In this document: positions 25,808 to 56,399 of the stretch, in pieces
Position numbering within the stretch: the stretch's first letter is position 1
How the letters are laid out: the number at the start of each line of letters is the position of its first letter
From: Lachnospiraceae bacterium AF51-6-b8A
GTDB lineage: Bacteria; Bacillota; Clostridia; Lachnospirales; Lachnospiraceae
DNA length: 64,000 nucleotides
Direction: 5' to 3'
NCBI GenBank assembly: GCA_027682585.1
Contig: JAQCZH010000001.1
Span: 62,001-126,000 of the forward strand
Position numbers and translations under genes: made by a program
Notes under the pieces: generated by a model
The model's input: the letters and a program-made list of their open reading frames with translations, nothing else
Databases searched by the model: none
Told to the model about the DNA's origin: nothing

Positions 25808-25948
25808 ATGACGCATATTAAGACTCTTAATACCAGAAGGCTGCAGACGACTTTGAAGAAGGGTGGATGCGGTGAGTGCCAGACCTCTTGCCAGTCTGCC
25901 TGCAAGACCTCATGCACGGTAGGCAACCAGAGCTGCGAGAATCAGTAA
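25808..25948 (+). CDS. SCIFF ranthipeptide precursor (six cysteines in forty-five residues)
   Basis: A 46-residue ribosomal peptide precursor. The leader (MTHIKTLNTRRLQTTLKKGG) and the core with six cysteines at positions 21, 24, 28, 32, 36 and 43 (GGCGECQTSCQSACKTSC) are diagnostic of the SCIFF family found across Clostridia. The radical SAM maturase downstream should form thioether links from cysteines to acceptor residues. GGAGGATTCGA precedes the ATG. The biological role of SCIFF peptides is unsettled; a quorum-type or housekeeping role has been proposed for the family. Confidence 0.93.
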   Translation: MTHIKTLNTRRLQTTLKKGGCGECQTSCQSACKTSCTVGNQSCENQ

Positions 25949-26012
25949 GTTAAGTACTGTACCGGTGCGGTTGCCCCGCAGCGAGTGCGGCAAGAGGAGG
26001 TTGGATCTGCGA

Positions 26013-26080
26013 ACGGCCTTTTGCCGTGAATTATAGGGAAGGCCGTAGGGACGGGGATAAGTCTCTGCGGTCTTTCTTTT
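26013..26080 (+). terminator. Attenuator-like structure between SCIFF precursor and maturase
   Basis: A 12-bp stem with wobbles (26041-26052 with 26061-26072) followed by TTTCTTTT looks like a terminator. Its left arm overlaps AAGGCCGT (26039-26046), which can instead pair with ACGGCCTT (26013-26020). ACGGC (26013-26017) can also pair with GCCGT (26023-26027). Mutually exclusive pairings of this kind are the layout of an attenuator. It would let the precursor be made in excess over the enzyme. Confidence 0.55.
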
Positions 26081-26210
26081 GCGAACGGAGATTCGACTGC
26101 TTTGCGGATTCGATATGTAAGTTCAATGGATTCGTTTATGTTTTACAGGCCAGGTCAGGCCAATAGAGCAGTTCCGTTTATCCGCTGATCCTTAGAAATG
26201 GAGAGAAGAC

Positions 26211-27644
26211 TTGATTCATCAGTTTAAAAACAATGGCTACAATATTGTCCTGGATGTTAACTCTGGTGCCATACATGTGGTAGATGATGCGACCTATGAC
26301 ATCATCGGGATGTATGAGCGGGAGGATAGGGAAGAGATCGAAAAGGTGATTCTGGCTAAATATCCCGATACCAGCCAGGCTGATCTGGAGGAGATTTTTG
26401 ACGAGATTCAGGCCCTGATCGATGACAAGTCTCTCTTTACGCCAGACAGCTATGAGACCTATATGGATGATGTCTTAAAGCGCCGTCCTACAGTAGTTAA
26501 GGCCCTCTGTCTCAATGTGGCCCATGACTGCAACCTGGCCTGCAGGTATTGTTTCGCGGACGAGGGAACTTACTGCGGAGGCCCCAGAGAACTTATGAGC
26601 TTTGAGACCGGAAAGAATGCTTTCGATTTCCTGATTGCCAATTCCGGTAACCGGAGGAATCTGGAGGTGGACTTCTTTGGCGGAGAACCTCTTATGAACT
26701 GGGAGGTGGTCAAGCAGCTGGTGATCTATGGAAGACAGCAGGAAAAGATCTACAACAAGAACTTTCGCTTCACGCTGACCACCAACGGCGTTCTTCTGAA
26801 CGACGAGATTCAGGACTTCCTCAACCGAGAGATGAGCAATGTCGTTCTCTCAATTGACGGAAGGAAGGAGATCCACAATCTGATGCGTCCCTTCCGCGGC
26901 GGTCAGTCTTCCTATGAGAAGATTGTCCCTAAGTTCCAGAAGCTGGCGGAGTCCAGGGGACAGCAGAAATACTATGCCAGGGGAACATTTACCAGGAATA
27001 ATCTGGACTTCTCCGAGGATGTCCTACATATCGCAGATCTTGGCTTTAAGCAGATCTCTGTTGAGCCTGTCGTGGCACAGCCCACAGACGATTATGCGCT
27101 TTGTGAAGAGGATCTGCCCAAGCTCTTTGCCGAGTATGATAAACTGGCTGCGGAGATGGTCAGGCGCAGGGGAAGCGATCAGGACTTCAACTTCTTTCAC
27201 TTTATGATTGATCTGGAGGGTGGACCCTGCGTGGCTAAGCGTTTGTCCGGCTGCGGTTCGGGCACCGAGTATGTCTGCATTACCCCCAATGGCGATATCT
27301 ATCCCTGTCATCAGTTTGCGGGGAACAAAGATTTCGTTATGGGGAATATCAACGACGGAACCGGACTGGTTCGAACGGATATTCGCGATGAATTTAAGCT
27401 CTGTAATGTCTATGCCAAGGATAAGTGCAGGGACTGCTTCGCCAAGTTCTACTGTTCCGGGGGTTGTGCGGCGAATTCTTATAACTTCAAGGGCAAGATC
27501 AATGACACCTACGATCTGGGCTGTGCCCTGCAGCAGAAGCGAATCGAGTGTTCCATCATGATTAAGGCAGCTCAGGCTGCTGCGGCAGAGGATTATACTT
27601 CCGAACATGATGAGCAGGTAATGCGTCCGGCGCAATTGTGTTAG
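26211..27644 (+). CDS. SCIFF peptide radical SAM maturase
   Basis: A 477-residue radical SAM/SPASM enzyme that installs thioether crosslinks in the SCIFF precursor encoded upstream. The N-terminal part (IHQFKNNGYNIVLDVNSGAIHVVDDATYDII) is the peptide-recognition region of this family. The SAM cluster motif is CNLACRYC near residue 107, with GGEPLMNWEVV and TTNGVLL downstream. The C-terminal SPASM/twitch cysteines are in CGSGTEYVCITPNGDIYPCHQ and CRDCFAKFYCSGGC. The start is a TTG (26211) preceded by GGAGAGAAG; it fits the family N-terminus. SCIFF, maturase and secDF commonly lie together in Clostridia. Confidence 0.93.
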   Translation: MIHQFKNNGYNIVLDVNSGAIHVVDDATYDIIGMYEREDREEIEKVILAKYPDTSQADLEEIFDEIQALIDDKSLFTPDSYETYMDDVLKRRPTVVKALCLNVAHDCNLACRYCFADEGTYCGGPRELMSFETGKNAFDFLIANSGNRRNLEVDFFGGEPLMNWEVVKQLVIYGRQQEKIYNKNFRFTLTTNGVLLNDEIQDFLNREMSNVVLSIDGRKEIHNLMRPFRGGQSSYEKIVPKFQKLAESRGQQKYYARGTFTRNNLDFSEDVLHIADLGFKQISVEPVVAQPTDDYALCEEDLPKLFAEYDKLAAEMVRRRGSDQDFNFFHFMIDLEGGPCVAKRLSGCGSGTEYVCITPNGDIYPCHQFAGNKDFVMGNINDGTGLVRTDIRDEFKLCNVYAKDKCRDCFAKFYCSGGCAANSYNFKGKINDTYDLGCALQQKRIECSIMIKAAQAAAAEDYTSEHDEQVMRPAQLC

Positions 27645-50867: not shown

Positions 50868-51060
50868 CTGACTCATGACAGGAGAAGAGCTGCGGGTGAG
50901 AGGAAAGTGAAGGGAACTGTGAAAAACAAGTACCAAGTAGATATATCGTATATGTGTCGCTTGTGTAAAGGCAAAATATGGTATTGAGCTCTCTGTTTTT
51001 CATAGTCTCAGATTTTCACAGACCCGGGGCAGATGACAAAGATATCTGGAAGGAGGAGAG

Positions 51061-52569
51061 ATGTCGACGGGGCAGGGGCATACTTATATTGCAATTGATC
51101 TGAAGAGTTTCTATGCCTCTGTGGAATGCCGTGAGAGGAAGTTAGATCCTCTGACCACCAATCTGGTGGTTGCGGATGCCTGCCGCAGCAAAAAGACCAT
51201 CTGTCTTGCGGTTTCTCCCTCTCTTAAGGCCTGCGGAATCGGTGGCAGGGCCCGGCTCTTTGAAGTGATAGAGGCGGTAGAACAGGTGAATGCAGCCAGG
51301 CGTTATGCGATCGGCGGCAGGGACTTTGAAGGGGGATCTCATCAGGCGCCGGAACTGGCGGCTAATCCCCGGCTCAAGCTGAATTACATTGTGGCCAGAC
51401 CGCAGATGAAGCGCTATGAAGAGGTCTCTGCTGGAATTTATCAGATCTATCTGAACTATGTGGCAGCAGAGGATATTCATGTCTACTCCATTGATGAGGT
51501 CTTTCTGGATGTGACCCATTATCTGGGAAGTTATGGGCTGACAGCCCATGAACTGACAAGGGAAATCATCCGACATGTCTTAAGAGAGACAGGGATCACA
51601 GCAACGGCGGGAATCGCTCCCAATATGTATCTCTGCAAAGTGGCCATGGACATTGTGGCCAAGCATGTGCCTGCGGATGCGGATGGAGTTCGAATCGCAG
51701 AGCTGGATGAGATCAGTTACCGCCGCATGCTTTGGAACCACAGGCCGCTCACGGATTTCTGGCGAATTGGGGGCGGAACTGCGCGCAGGCTGGCCTCCAT
51801 GGGCATTTACACACAGGGAGATATCGCCCGCCTCTCCCTGTCCAATGAGGATGTTTTCTTTCGTACCTTTGGCGTGAATGCGGAGTATCTGATTGATCAT
51901 GCCTGGGGCAGAGAACCGGTTACCATTGCGGATTATCGAGCCTATCGGCCCATGAATAACTCTCTGGGGATCGGACAGGTTCTGCAGGAAGCGACATCCA
52001 ATGAGAGAGCCCGTATCCTGCTGCGGGAGATGTGTGACAGCCTGGTGCTGGATCTGATCGACAGGAAATGCGTGACAGACCAAGTTGTTCTGACTGTGGG
52101 CTATGACCGCTGTAATCTGGAGCTTTCTGGAGAAAGAAATCGCTATCAGGGAGTGGTAGGGGCGGATCGCTATGGGCGTATGGTGCCAAAGCCCGCGCAT
52201 GGCTCAAGCCGTCTGCCTCGCTGCAGCTCTTCTCAGCGCCTGATCAGCCGGTATCTGCTGGAACTGTATGACCAGATCACACAGCCGCAGCTCCTGGTGC
52301 GCAGACTGACGCTTGCGGTACACGTTCTGCCGGAAGGGAGTGGGGATGAGGCGGGATTCGAGCAGATGGAACTCTTTGCGAGTGATACAAGCGGGGATAC
52401 AGCAAGGAAAGAAGGACGAGAAGAGGAGAAGCGGGAGAGAAGAGTCCAGGAGGCAGTGCTTTCCATAAAGAAGCGCTTTGGCAAAAATGCGCTTCTGCGG
52501 GGAACAGACCTGCAGGATGGGGCTAATGCGAGGGAGCGCAACAGGCAGATTGGAGGACATCGGGCCTGA
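51061..52569 (+). CDS. Y-family DNA polymerase, UmuC type
   Basis: A 502-residue translesion polymerase. AIDLKSFYASVECRERKLDPLTTNLVVAD carries the first catalytic Asp and the steric-gate region, and the second acidic pair is in VYSIDEVFLDVT. GIAPNMYLCKVAMDIVAKH, IGGGTARRLASMGI (helix-hairpin-helix) and the little-finger region follow. The C-terminal 60 residues are charged, low complexity and lack a clear beta-clamp motif. A YolD-like gene follows 170 bases later, the usual partner of UmuC-type polymerases in Firmicutes. I do not see a convincing LexA box, so SOS control is unproven. Confidence 0.9.
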   Translation: MSTGQGHTYIAIDLKSFYASVECRERKLDPLTTNLVVADACRSKKTICLAVSPSLKACGIGGRARLFEVIEAVEQVNAARRYAIGGRDFEGGSHQAPELAANPRLKLNYIVARPQMKRYEEVSAGIYQIYLNYVAAEDIHVYSIDEVFLDVTHYLGSYGLTAHELTREIIRHVLRETGITATAGIAPNMYLCKVAMDIVAKHVPADADGVRIAELDEISYRRMLWNHRPLTDFWRIGGGTARRLASMGIYTQGDIARLSLSNEDVFFRTFGVNAEYLIDHAWGREPVTIADYRAYRPMNNSLGIGQVLQEATSNERARILLREMCDSLVLDLIDRKCVTDQVVLTVGYDRCNLELSGERNRYQGVVGADRYGRMVPKPAHGSSRLPRCSSSQRLISRYLLELYDQITQPQLLVRRLTLAVHVLPEGSGDEAGFEQMELFASDTSGDTARKEGREEEKRERRVQEAVLSIKKRFGKNALLRGTDLQDGANARERNRQIGGHRA

Positions 52570-52738
52570 GAGAGAAGCTCGCGTGGAAGACAGGATAATC
52601 CAACAGAAGCGTTGAAGCATTGATTTATATAAATGAGTACATGTGCACCAAATCCGTGTGAAGATTGCTGCTGGCGGCGACGCGGGTGACGATACACGGA
52701 TCAGCTGATCAGGAGATCACAGAAGGGCAGAGAAGGAT

Positions 52739-53227
52739 ATGTGTCAAAAGAAAATGACAGATTCGGGTAAATCCTGGCATTCTATTGAAGGAGTTCATTC
52801 AATAGGGTTAGGGGGAGATCCGCTTGTTCTGGAGAAGTATGGAGATATGATACAGACAGATTGGAGGGGTGTGCGCAGGCACCCTCATGCGGATTATGGA
52901 ATTCGGGCAGCTCAATTTGCTCCTTTTGCCGCGCTGTCCGATTATGATGAAGAACTTGCCGAGATCGTCAGACCGGTGGAGCAGAGGGCAGATCTGACGG
53001 AAAGCGCTCTCCGGGAGCTGGATCAGAAACTGAGGGAAATTCTTGCAAATTCAGGACAAGGGGAGATAGAGATTGAGTATTTTGCGCCTGATCTGTACAA
53101 GGACGGAGGCAGTTATCAAAAACACAGGGGATATCTGAAAAGACTGGATTTGGATGCGAGAACTATCTGCATGAAGGACGGTTTGCGGATTCCGGTGGAT
53201 GAGATCCGGCGAGTGGAGATTCTGTAG
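52739..53227 (+). CDS. YolD-like protein, partner of the Y-family polymerase
   Basis: A 162-residue protein of the YolD-like family (PF08863), proposed to act as the UmuD-like partner of Y-family polymerases. The diagnostic core is RAAQFAPFAALSDYDEELAEIVRPV, followed by a helical section and a beta part IEIEYFAPDLYKDGGSYQKHRGYLKRLDLDARTICMKDGLRIPVDEIRRVEIL. The first 40 residues are variable. It lies just downstream of the polymerase on the same strand, supporting joint function in mutagenic repair. Confidence 0.85.
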   Translation: MCQKKMTDSGKSWHSIEGVHSIGLGGDPLVLEKYGDMIQTDWRGVRRHPHADYGIRAAQFAPFAALSDYDEELAEIVRPVEQRADLTESALRELDQKLREILANSGQGEIEIEYFAPDLYKDGGSYQKHRGYLKRLDLDARTICMKDGLRIPVDEIRRVEIL

Positions 53228-53633
53228 GGAAGATGTCATCTTATATCTGTTTCCCGGAGATTCTTCATCTTTCACATAAGGCCGGGAAAAGTAAGATTTG
53301 GCAATGATGCATGTTAAGCCCTGTGGGATTGGCAGCGCCAGTGAGATCATGCAGGTGATAATAGATAAAATTTGAACGAGTTTGTTGTCTATATTTACAA
53401 GTGAAGAATTTACCATAATAAAGTAAATAGAAGAAAAACGCCAGTTTTCCTGTAGATTATGCACAAAAAATAAGATTAAATTTGTTGACATTAACCATAC
53501 ATGGATGTAAGATAAGGATGTCCGAAGGGAAAAGACGAAAAACAATTGAATGTGTCTGCTGTGAACATGTGATGGCAGTAAATCAAAAGAAGTGAGAAGG
53601 CAGATGCAGGTATAATTTCGAGGAGGATGTCAT
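53228..53633. other. AT-rich intergenic region before the tandem microproteins
   Basis: About 400 bases with no supportable gene. The left end has no clear terminator for the YolD-like gene. Near the right end GCAGGTATAATTTCG contains TATAAT at about 53611-53616, a likely -10 box for the microprotein genes; the matching -35 box is weak. Confidence 0.45.
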
Positions 53634-53750
53634 ATGTTTGAGAACGGTTTTGCGCAGGTATATTGCAGTTATGATGAGTATGTAAGAGCAGAGAAGGCAG
53701 CAGGCCGCAAGCCTGTATCCTTTGCAAAGTTTATGTTTGGCCGTTATTAA
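53634..53750 (+). CDS. 38-residue microprotein, tandem copy A
   Basis: A short gene with a strong ribosome site (CGAGGAGGA, seven bases before ATG) and a 38-residue product: an aromatic N-terminal part (MFENGFAQVYCSYDEYV), a charged helix (RAEKAAGRK) and a conserved tail PVSFAKFMFGRY. No signal peptide, no membrane span, one cysteine. It is followed after 77 bases by a paralogue of the same length. Of six codon differences in the last half, four are synonymous, which argues that the peptide is translated and selected. Function unknown; neighbours are the polymerase/YolD pair and an orphan membrane protein. Confidence 0.75.
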   Translation: MFENGFAQVYCSYDEYVRAEKAAGRKPVSFAKFMFGRY

Positions 53751-53827
53751 TTGTCAGAGTCAGCCAGGGAAATCGATGGGACAAAGACAGAAGAGCAGCG
53801 GCTCACAGAGCCGGGAGAGGAGCGAAT

Positions 53828-53944
53828 ATGTTTGATCAAAGTTTTGGGAATCTTTACAGCAGTTATGAGCAGTATGTAAGAGATGAGAAGGCAGCAGGCC
53901 GTAAGCCGGTATCCTTCGCGAAGTATATGTTTGGCAATTTCTAA
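53828..53944 (+). CDS. 38-residue microprotein, tandem copy B
   Basis: Paralogue of the upstream microprotein, exactly the same length: MFDQSFGNLYSSYEQYV, then RDEKAAGRK and PVSFAKYMFGNF. GGGAGAGGAGCG precedes its ATG, and a CGGCTC-ACA-GAGCCG hairpin sits immediately before that ribosome site, which could limit or tune translation. The cysteine of copy A is Ser here. It is followed by a strong terminator, so the two copies probably form one small transcript. Confidence 0.75.
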   Translation: MFDQSFGNLYSSYEQYVRDEKAAGRKPVSFAKYMFGNF

Positions 53945-54023
53945 ACAAATGAGACAGGCATCAGATGACTATGGCTCAAAATGAGATGCATAGCCTCTGT
54001 CAAGATTGATCGCCTAAATTGGA

Positions 54024-54071
54024 AGAAGCCGCTGCAACTTGATTCAAAATCAAGGGTTTGCAGCGGCTTCT
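54024..54071. terminator. Terminator after the tandem microproteins
   Basis: AGAAGCCGCTGCAA (54024-54037) and TTGCAGCGGCTTCT (54058-54071) with a secondary CTTGAT/ATCAAG pairing inside and a TTTTG tail. It serves the plus-strand microproteins and probably also the converging minus-strand gene. Confidence 0.88.
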
Positions 54072-54130
54072 TTTGTGATATGAAGAGACAGGTGATGTGG
54101 GATCAGGGGTACCGGTTACTCTCTCAATCC

Positions 54131-55033
54131 CTATCGTCCCGCAAACTGTCGGATGATGCTCAGAAGGAGACCAACCGCTGCCAGTCCTCCCTCGGGTACA
54201 GCCCGTATGGAGAAGATAGTCAGGAAGCTGCGAAGCCCAATAGCCAGACCGGCATGGGTGCCAGCCTGCATGAGGTTAGCCAGGTAGAGAGATGCGGTGG
54301 GGGTCAGAATCAGAGCGATCAGCAGAATCGTGAAGGGGAGTGCGCCGCGTCCGCAGTCCAGACGTGTCTTGACCCCATCCACCATGAACCTTCTGCGGGA
54401 GAGGATCCAAAGAGTCAGCAGGATGCCTGTGATGGGAGCGGCGAGGGTGGCAAGACGGAAGACATTAAGTCCTGTGGGCGTATTCTTCAATGTCTCTGAG
54501 ATGGTCGAGATATTCTGTACAGCGGACATGACAAAAAGGGCGACAATGGCAAGCATGGACAGGGCAGACAGATACTGAAGGATGCGTCCGAATTTGCGAA
54601 TCCCCCTGGAGGGAAGTTCTTCTGCAGTCAGACCTTTTCCGGGAAGACGACGGACTGAGGAATCCTCGTCTGTAAAACGATCTCTGTTCTCTTTTGCCTC
54701 GGGAAATGCGTCGGCGATCTGTGAGACGGCCTCTGATACGGAGGGATGCTTAGAAGGGGCATCACGCCATATATCGTGTGACTCTGCGTGATCCTCCAGC
54801 CACTCCTGAGCGAAATCATCCCTTGTATAGATCGTATTGCCGTGCTTGCGCATATGGCTGACCATTTTGGACATGAGTTTATCGAGATCCTGATCATCAT
54901 CATCGGGTGCTGCAGTCAGCACTTCAGTGATCTCATAGAGTTTGGGGGCTGTCTCACGAAAGTGAATTTCTGCTACAGAAATGCCATCATTATCGGCCCG
55001 AACAATTTTATTCTTACCAATTGCGTATAACAT
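54131..55033 (-). CDS. Membrane protein of unknown function
   Basis: A 300-residue protein that I do not recognise. Residues 1-140 are polar and acidic (APDDDDQDLDKLM, KHGNTIYTRDDFAQEWLEDHAESHDIW), likely cytoplasmic. Four hydrophobic segments follow at about 152-172, 190-212, 232-255 and 268-295. The first lines (MLYAIGKNKIVRADNDGISVAEIHFRE) look like a small beta domain. The start is preceded by GCAGAGGTAACT. TATAAT on the minus strand (plus 55076-55081) is a plausible -10 box. It is divergent from a Sel1-like protein, also an orphan. Confidence 0.65.
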   Translation of the reverse strand: MLYAIGKNKIVRADNDGISVAEIHFRETAPKLYEITEVLTAAPDDDDQDLDKLMSKMVSHMRKHGNTIYTRDDFAQEWLEDHAESHDIWRDAPSKHPSVSEAVSQIADAFPEAKENRDRFTDEDSSVRRLPGKGLTAEELPSRGIRKFGRILQYLSALSMLAIVALFVMSAVQNISTISETLKNTPTGLNVFRLATLAAPITGILLTLWILSRRRFMVDGVKTRLDCGRGALPFTILLIALILTPTASLYLANLMQAGTHAGLAIGLRSFLTIFSIRAVPEGGLAAVGLLLSIIRQFAGR

Positions 55034-55247
55034 AGTTACCTCTGCATAATCTCAATCGACTGAAATATCCAGAACATTATAACATGATGGCAGTTAAAAC
55101 CCTACGCTTTTTCCGTAATCATACTTTTGACGCCTGCACCATAATGATAAAATGAGAGCAGGTTTGAGAGAAGCTGCAGAGAAAACGTATGATTCCAGGT
55201 GGGGAGAGGATATCGTGTGGGAAGCTGATGAAGAACATGGGGGGCAC

Positions 55248-56399
55248 ATGGCGGAGATACAAATCAGTAATTACAGTGATCATGAGAAGCGGGAATTTGT
55301 CTCCGGGATGACGGCACAGATGCTGACGAAAGCCAGTCCTTACGAAAAAGCGCTCTATGAGCAGTTTGTGGAAGAGGGCTGTGCCAAGGGCGATTTGGTC
55401 TGCCTGGAGGCGAAGGGATATGGCTGCTATGGAGGAAATGAGGTATTTCCTTGTGATTATGGGGTCAGCAGGGACTGCATGGAGGAACTTCTGGCCCTGA
55501 CAGATGACGCCTCTTATGCCAATACGCTTGGCTATATCTACTATTATGGCCGATTGGATGGGAAACCGGACTATGAGAAAGCGGTCCGCTATTTCTCTCT
55601 GGGGGCCGCACAAGGCATTTTTGAGTCGACTTATAAGCTGGCGGATATGTTCGAGAGGGGACAGGGGCTGATTCAGAGCCCTGCTGCCTGCGCCAACCTG
55701 ATCAGCATGCTCTATGCGAAGACCAAAGATATTCTATGCCACAGGGAGTACCGGGGGAAGTTCGCCGATGTGGCCTTTCGTATGGGGCATCTCATGGAAG
55801 AGGGGATTGGCTTTGAGCCGGATCTGGTATCGGCGTATTCTGCTTATCTGCAGGCGCAAATGGCCATTCGTCTGCGCATGCAGACCATTGATTATGTGGG
55901 GGATGCGCGTGTGGCGGCCCGGATTCGCAAGGCGATAGAACGCACCTATCGGCAGTTGCGCGCGAGAGATTTTTTCCTGGAGGAGATAGAAATGGACGGC
56001 CCTGTCCCCCTGCTGACTTTTTTGGAGGATTACGGGCTGATCCGGGTGCGCCTGTACCGGGAAGATGGTTCTCTTCGGGTTGATTTTCATGGAATCGAGA
56101 GACTCTCTACAGGGCGTATGAAGGAGGAAGAGAGTGAAATCGAGACCGTGGTACCAAAACAGTTGGTGACGATTGCTGAGTTCTCAGCCTGTATTCTCTC
56201 CAGTCGTCTGACCATTCATATGGAAGATACCCGCATGATTTACCAGGCAGAGGAGGAGAAGCCTTTCGAGATCGATGAACTTCTTGTCGATTCGAAGAAG
56301 GAGGGACACTATCTTTTCCTGCGGGCGGGAACGGTGATGCTGGATCTGGAAGCCGGGCGTCTGAAGATCTACAAGAAGGATCTGGCGGATCTGGGTTAG
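55248..56399 (+). CDS. Sel1-like repeat protein
   Basis: A protein of about 383 residues with TPR/Sel1-like helical repeats in the middle (SYANTLGYIYYYGRLDGKPDYEKAVRYFSLGAAQGIFESTYKLADMFERGQGLIQSP and FRMGHLMEEGIGFEPDLVSAYSAYLQA). Such repeats bind other proteins. The last 150 residues are beta-rich (YGLIRVRLYREDGSLRVDFHGIERLS) without a known domain. The frame is open from 55152, but that ATG overlaps a candidate promoter (TTGACG 55127-55132, TAAAAT 55148-55153), so I prefer the ATG at 55248, preceded by a G-run. The start is uncertain. Confidence 0.7.
   Translation: MAEIQISNYSDHEKREFVSGMTAQMLTKASPYEKALYEQFVEEGCAKGDLVCLEAKGYGCYGGNEVFPCDYGVSRDCMEELLALTDDASYANTLGYIYYYGRLDGKPDYEKAVRYFSLGAAQGIFESTYKLADMFERGQGLIQSPAACANLISMLYAKTKDILCHREYRGKFADVAFRMGHLMEEGIGFEPDLVSAYSAYLQAQMAIRLRMQTIDYVGDARVAARIRKAIERTYRQLRARDFFLEEIEMDGPVPLLTFLEDYGLIRVRLYREDGSLRVDFHGIERLSTGRMKEEESEIETVVPKQLVTIAEFSACILSSRLTIHMEDTRMIYQAEEEKPFEIDELLVDSKKEGHYLFLRAGTVMLDLEAGRLKIYKKDLADLG

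Follow-up and report, generated by a model that had tools for sequence, protein, structure and literature searches.

A conserved family of microproteins in Lachnospiraceae, probably small regulators, with recurrent linkage to galactoside genes

Introduction

The nearest described systems to the genes reported here are the bacterial microproteins SgrT, Sda, SR1P and VcdP. SgrT is a product of about 40 residues that is made from a free-standing unit with a terminator in a sugar-metabolism setting; its gene shares a conserved, promoter-bearing intergenic region with a transcription-factor gene, its homologues are described as poorly conserved, and the peptide can be absent in relatives, as in Yersinia, whose SgrS homologues lack sgrT (PMC4021124). 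Sda of Bacillus subtilis is a helical hairpin of 46 aa whose promoter holds DnaA sites (PMC7430163, PMC8203912). SR1P of B. subtilis (39 residues) is described as a protein that binds GapA (PMC7430163) and VcdP of Vibrio cholerae (29 residues) as one that binds citrate synthase (PMC8672173).

Here we describe a family of microproteins, mostly of 38-45 residues and previously undescribed, two copies of which, judged by sequence, lie in tandem in a 64 kb stretch of DNA (the whole stretch that was analysed, hereafter the window). Pfam holds models for SgrT, Sda and SR1P; the family falls outside every family model searched, being kin in kind to the known microprotein regulators and a member of none tested. 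With SgrT it shares the length of about 40 residues, the free-standing unit with terminator in a sugar-metabolism setting, the conserved intergenic region with a promoter next to a transcription-factor gene, and absence from some relatives; it differs in that the neighbouring regulator is of the TetR family and not SgrR, in that 19 members are without a Pfam match, and in that its peptide is conserved whereas conservation of SgrT homologues is described as poor (PMC4021124). The likeness to Sda lies in a very short helical hairpin, which for the family is a prediction, and in a promoter element that resembles a DnaA box; unlike Sda, the family matches no Pfam model, stands in a sugar-gene context and has more than one exact box in a single promoter out of 16. 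SR1P and VcdP are tiny proteins that adjust the activity of a metabolic enzyme by binding to it, a mode of action that for the family is proposed by analogy, and no SR1P model appears among the Pfam matches of its members.

Many conserved bacterial microproteins come without a functional lead; this family has three handles, in that its fold is predicted with confidence, its promoter signature is nearly unique and its gene is repeatedly linked to one catabolic operon. Pseudobutyrivibrio and other Lachnospiraceae play a major part in fibre fermentation in gut and rumen, and a small regulator of galactoside use, if true, would be a new and testable layer of control in these organisms.

Organisation of the window locus

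The two ORFs of the window stand in tandem with a gap of 77 nt and both start with ATG (Table 1); their products are 66% identical and their DNA agrees at 93/117 positions. When all short ORFs of the window were compared in pairs (ATG ORFs of 30-60 aa on both strands, with starts at least 190 nt apart; 20,805 pairs), this pair reached a BLOSUM62 score of 142 and the runner-up 55, so that the likeness is not due to chance. Both ORFs are genuine genes. An earlier note on this DNA, made from the letters alone, had described two 38-residue paralogues of equal length that share a pattern of the SY-x2-YVR...MFG type and have a ribosome site each. The ORF list and the protein identity bear this out, both ORFs fit the pattern, and a purine-rich site was found by eye before each.

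Table 1. Features of the microprotein locus, in coordinates of the window
Feature	Position	Strand	Basis and remarks
TTATGCACAA element (CACAA box, DnaA-box-like), upstream of promoter	53457..53466	+	Spacing conserved across promoters
Promoter TTGACA-17-TAAGAT	53485..53513	+	Consensus scan, 10/12 matches; 5' of both ORFs
GAGGAGG, ribosome-binding site of ORF1	53620..53626	+	Read by eye
Microprotein ORF1 (P0044)	53634..53750	+	38 aa; ORF list and family profile match
Short hairpin CGGCTC-ACA-GAGCCG, 5' of second ribosome site	53799..53813	+	6-bp stem, fold
AGAGGAG, ribosome-binding site of ORF2	53816..53822	+	Read by eye
Microprotein ORF2 (P0001)	53828..53944	+	38 aa; ORF list and family profile match, AlphaFold model
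Intrinsic terminator	54021..54074	+	-33.5 kcal/mol, z -8.57, 0/200 shuffles as good

Other parts of that description need amendment. The hairpin said to abut the second ribosome site exists, but the 50-nt stretch that contains it folds in an ordinary way and is no more stable than shuffled sequence (z -1.43, 18/200 shuffles as good). The terminator said to end the unit is as strong as claimed, but begins about 76 nt past ORF2 and may also be used by the convergent gene. The promoter-like site at 53485-53513, which that description did not name, proved to be conserved in the family. The organisation as a two-gene unit holds for the window, but a single copy is the rule in the other carrier genomes (12 of 15); tandem pairs occur in 4/17 family loci (the window, G139, G372 and G066). 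In 16/17 loci a hairpin followed by a T-run occurs no more than 150 nt from the last stop codon, some of these hairpins being weak, and in several the terminator directly abuts the stop; in G611 none was found within that distance. The gene, or tandem pair, is a stand-alone unit of CACAA promoter, purine-rich ribosome site, ORF and terminator-like hairpin.

Family membership and selection

A two-row profile run against 397 family-level genomes gave the first candidates, after which the profile was rebuilt. Matches at E 3e-15 or better were found in 11 of 392 order-level genomes, separated by a clear gap from the next match at 7.7e-4, and at 1e-4 in 6/397 family-level genomes, with G153 and G252 present in both sets; the profile search of class-level genomes returned no member in 291. 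A 19-row profile drew 91 family proteins from the protein collection, none of them weaker than E 1.8e-5, and a 60-row profile added a further 16, so that the iterated searches give 107 proteins including the two from the window, or 105 others. The homologues that the earlier note had proposed to look for are therefore present, and the genome matches kept have no internal stops. To date the family has turned up only in Lachnospiraceae and genomes of their order, which are gut and rumen bacteria including Pseudobutyrivibrio.

Length is 38-45 residues in 93 of the 107 proteins. Their common core reads Y-x2-Y ... G-x2-[P/A]-V-S-x2-K-[Y/F]-A-[F/L]-G and usually ends two residues from the C-terminus (94/107); the two tyrosines and the final glycine do not vary across 60 rows. 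All family proteins that bear a name are labelled hypothetical, and the protein of Pseudobutyrivibrio sp. OR37 is identical to the G701 member. In view of such deposits, the earlier statement that the pair is too short for the usual gene callers is right only in part.

The statement that the pair belongs to no recognised family has held up, as nothing in Pfam or NCBIfam matched it and 19 members gave no match at the Pfam-A cut-off and no credible match in PHROGs (best E 0.016) or NCBIfam (best E 0.15). The PDB sequence search was likewise without a significant match (best E 0.29), and no description of the family was found in the open-licence PMC literature. Sub-threshold Pfam-A matches of the 19 members, taken up to E 10, comprised TscA, HMG_CoA_synt_C and RFX_DNA_binding, with a best E of 0.03, and were not credited. 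Carriage as phage or plasmid cargo was considered and rejected, with 0 plasmid records (E 1) and 0 viral contigs; the one record labelled as phage has bacterial housekeeping genes.

The earlier note had seen selection on the peptide in the codon pattern of the last 20 codons, where it counted four synonymous changes among six differing codons. The four synonymous changes are confirmed, but in codons 19-38 there are 8 differences (pN/pS 0.30), and in codons 1-18 pN (0.25) exceeds pS (0.19). Constraint within the pair is visible in the C-terminal half only, and the pair by itself is therefore thin evidence of selection. It is among the relatives that the sequences show purifying selection: a test of the dN/dS type, also proposed earlier, gave pN/pS mostly between 0.14 and 0.4 among nine close orthologues and below 0.5 in 35/36 of their pairs, which are not independent, the exception being 0.61.

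Predicted structure

AlphaFold places helices at residues 2-22 and 30-34 of ORF2 (pLDDT 88.6, pTM 0.59) and models a Butyrivibrio-type member with a pLDDT of 91.0. The product is predicted to be a helical hairpin in which a turn joins one long helix to a short, aromatic one that lies immediately ahead of the C-terminus. Foldseek returned no PDB match at E 0.001, and viral structures gave no significant match to the predicted fold.

Promoter architecture

Sixteen loci (the window and 15 genomes) share TTGAC[A/T], a 17-nt spacer and TAnnnT, with CACAA upstream; from the start of CACAA to the -35 hexamer the distance is 24 nt in 15 loci and 23 nt in the window. Promoter-like sites of this grade are no rarer in shuffled sequence than in the window (4 found against 3.7 expected), and the weight therefore rests on the architecture common to 16/16 loci. 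Other TTGAC[A/T]-17-TAnnnT sites, available in 14 of the 16 loci, have CACAA at that place in 0/11 cases. Searched genome-wide in 16 genomes, the full pattern gave 18 matches, 14 of which are the family promoter, the remainder being two in G571 and one each in G701 and G275; the family promoter of G275 reads TTGACT and hence lies outside the pattern searched. The reversed-pattern control gave 1 match in the same genomes. CACAA-N17-20-TTGACA occurs once in the 64 kb window, compared with a mean of 0.08 in shuffles (8/100 with one). The -35 hexamer lies 59-90 nt upstream of the start codon in 14 non-window loci and 149 nt upstream in the window.

The CACAA element resembles the degenerate form of the DnaA box, TTWTNCACA, which is found exactly in 12 of 16 promoters, with two boxes in G252, one in 11 and none in 4 (this set of 16 includes the contig L202 and leaves out G571). 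In L202 the word at -24 is AACAA, with CACAC at -13. The DnaA-box sequence is given as TTATCCACA in one source (PMC8203912). In the family the box is part of a 17-bp imperfect inverted repeat resembling TTGT-N9-ACAA, with pairing at 4 to 6 of its 8 positions; 1-20% of neighbouring sequence windows pair as well as this. A dedicated regulator of the family promoter is likely, DnaA being one candidate. Upstream of the TetR-family gene discussed below there are GTTTCC/GGAAAC repeats, distinct from the CACAA element, which are the likelier TetR operator of the two.

Genomic context

Galactoside genes (GalT, GH36 or the TetR operon) are present in the fetched stretch, of 6.9-19.5 kb, in 15/15 other carrier genomes, which are not independent, since by sequence they represent only about five lineages. 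The microprotein gene stands head to head with a TetR-family gene in 12/15; in one locus Pfam assigns this regulator to TetR_N (PF00440), and in the others blastp recognised its relatives. The TetR gene opens an operon with GH2, DUF6937/DUF6938, GPH symporter and GH36 genes, all four of which were detected in 9/12 genomes; undetected were GH2 in G139, GPH in G153, and DUF6937 and GPH in G588. GalT lies on the other side of the microprotein gene in G139, G372 and G066, and near it in G252, G714 and G275, where the TetR relatives lie elsewhere. The DUF6937 protein, together with DUF6938, is often found in the TetR-GH2-GPH-GH36 operon (L137 6845-8311 and relatives are examples). In G252 and G714 the microprotein gene is separated from GH36 by a gene for a DUF5692 protein (L138 10187-11326), and such a protein is also encoded on the TetR-GH36 contig of G275.

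DUF6937 is present in 61/397 family-level genomes and in 0/14 control genomes. Among the 397 it occurs in 5/6 genomes with the microprotein vs 56/391 without it (Fisher p 4e-4, kinship ignored), and the sixth, G275, has the TetR-GH36 locus. Eighteen DUF6937 loci fetched from microprotein-free genomes have no member beside the operon; the best match in them, at a profile E of 0.042, was inspected and rejected. The operon marker often occurs in genomes that lack the microprotein, which is at most accessory to the operon.

The galactoside linkage is strong, yet not universal, as the window and L202 lie elsewhere. Ten reference galactoside-locus proteins found no match anywhere in the 64 kb window. 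Upstream of the pair (51061-53227) there is a translesion-type cassette of a UmuC-like Y-family polymerase gene with IMS domains and then a YolD-like gene, the latter with a weak Pfam match below the cut-off (E 0.042); downstream are an unnamed gene and a Sel1 gene. The polymerase shares 81% identity with its counterpart in Shuttleworthella satelles, compared with 55-60% for the other 79 loci listed, and the window is therefore close to the genus Shuttleworthella. In L202 (MT836534.1) the member lies between an amidase gene and a gene for a CxxCxxCC-domain protein, with nrdG/nrdD beyond the latter. Deposited under the name Bacteriophage sp., this record has genes for TrmO and methyltransferases besides nrdD and an nrdG-like gene, and by its gene content resembles a bacterial contig.

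The genome of S. satelles contains neither a detected family member nor a match to the full promoter pattern. At the locus that matches the window's, the YolD-like gene is followed by a Mutator-family transposase gene (PF00872; L014 9379-10530, minus strand), which may have removed or displaced the microprotein region. S. satelles does possess the TetR-GH36 operon, and the region ahead of TetR holds a window-like promoter with CATAA instead of CACAA (local score 40 vs 28 for the best of 500 mononucleotide shuffles). The region concerned (L149 9950-10200, minus strand) reads promoter, a terminator-like T-run hairpin seen by eye, then TetR, and no family ORF was found between promoter and TetR. 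An ancestral place beside the TetR operon, with later loss in S. satelles, is compatible with this arrangement and depends on one alignment.

Proposed role

The family members are probably small protein regulators. As a working model, an upstream regulator would sense the sugar or energy state and cause the microprotein to be made; the small folded protein, produced from its own free-standing unit, would then act in trans by binding a protein partner and tuning its activity. Action in trans is suggested by the free-standing production, the sugar linkage in several lineages and the survival of the gene after leaving the locus. From the position of the gene in the galactoside loci of all 15 other carriers we infer that the target is likely a galactoside protein; the likeliest partner in uptake or catabolism would be the GPH symporter, GalT or the TetR regulator. 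That a free-standing microprotein binds such a galactoside protein in the manner of SgrT is our tentative preference, held at somewhat below an even chance.

The best rival, in our view unlikely, is a checkpoint protein of the Sda kind, a DnaA-controlled hairpin that, on disturbance of replication, would inhibit a kinase or some other protein of the cell cycle or of development. The exact TTWTNCACA in 12/16 promoters, the predicted hairpin of about 40 aa and the partly DNA-linked character of the non-galactoside contexts (translesion-type polymerase in the window, nrdD/nrdG in L202) agree with it, but the recurring neighbours are sugar genes, no Sda model is among the Pfam matches of members, and the box, as part of an imperfect inverted repeat, perhaps belongs to another regulator. 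Moreover, two exact boxes are found in G252 only, one in 11 promoters and none in 4, whereas sda is credited with multiple DnaA sites (PMC7430163). An improbable combination of both ideas would be a new class of hairpin microprotein, timed by DnaA or otherwise specially controlled, that switches a sugar-pathway protein and so links the replication or growth state to galactoside use, encoded at a single locus in each genome under a promoter signature found at hardly any other gene there. Rather unlikely too is a dual-function small RNA, on the lines of SgrS/SgrT, SR1/SR1P and VcdRP, whose transcript would base-pair with the mRNAs of its targets besides coding for the peptide. A short free-standing unit with terminator would suit such an RNA, and S. 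satelles keeps a similar promoter without the ORF, like the Yersinia SgrS homologues that lack sgrT (PMC4021124); however, with the -35 hexamer 59-90 nt upstream of the start codon in the 14 non-window loci and with terminators that in several loci abut the stop there is little room for a pairing segment, and no Rfam family reached its cut-off in 51000-56000.

Much the same low probability attaches to a specific partner of the adjacent TetR protein, an anti-repressor or co-repressor, for which the head-to-head arrangement in 12/15 genomes and a TetR relative in the other 3 would speak. Yet most genomes with the operon marker are without the microprotein, the gene lies near GalT and not near TetR in G252 and G714, and hhalign finds the microprotein unrelated in sequence to TetR (probability 0.3). 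A leaderless exported peptide (a signal, bacteriocin-like or surface-active), whose active part would be the conserved aromatic C-terminus, would account for a small product made alone, in tandem in 4/17 loci and with a strict C-terminal block; it is very unlikely, as no signal sequence or transmembrane stretch is seen by eye, no exporter, immunity or receptor gene was seen to recur alongside, and the hairpin is charged and soluble-looking. The 38 codons and the excess of pN over pS in the 5' half of the window pair could be read as a chance ORF pair in a non-coding RNA, but judged by the 105 relatives of the same core and similar length, with pN/pS below 0.5 in 35/36 pairs and a confident fold, this reading is already refuted.

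Elsewhere in the window, at about 25901-27644, the C-terminal end of a peptide, CKTSCTVGNQSCENQ, which we take to be SCIFF-like, is encoded upstream of a radical SAM/SPASM protein (26211-27644).
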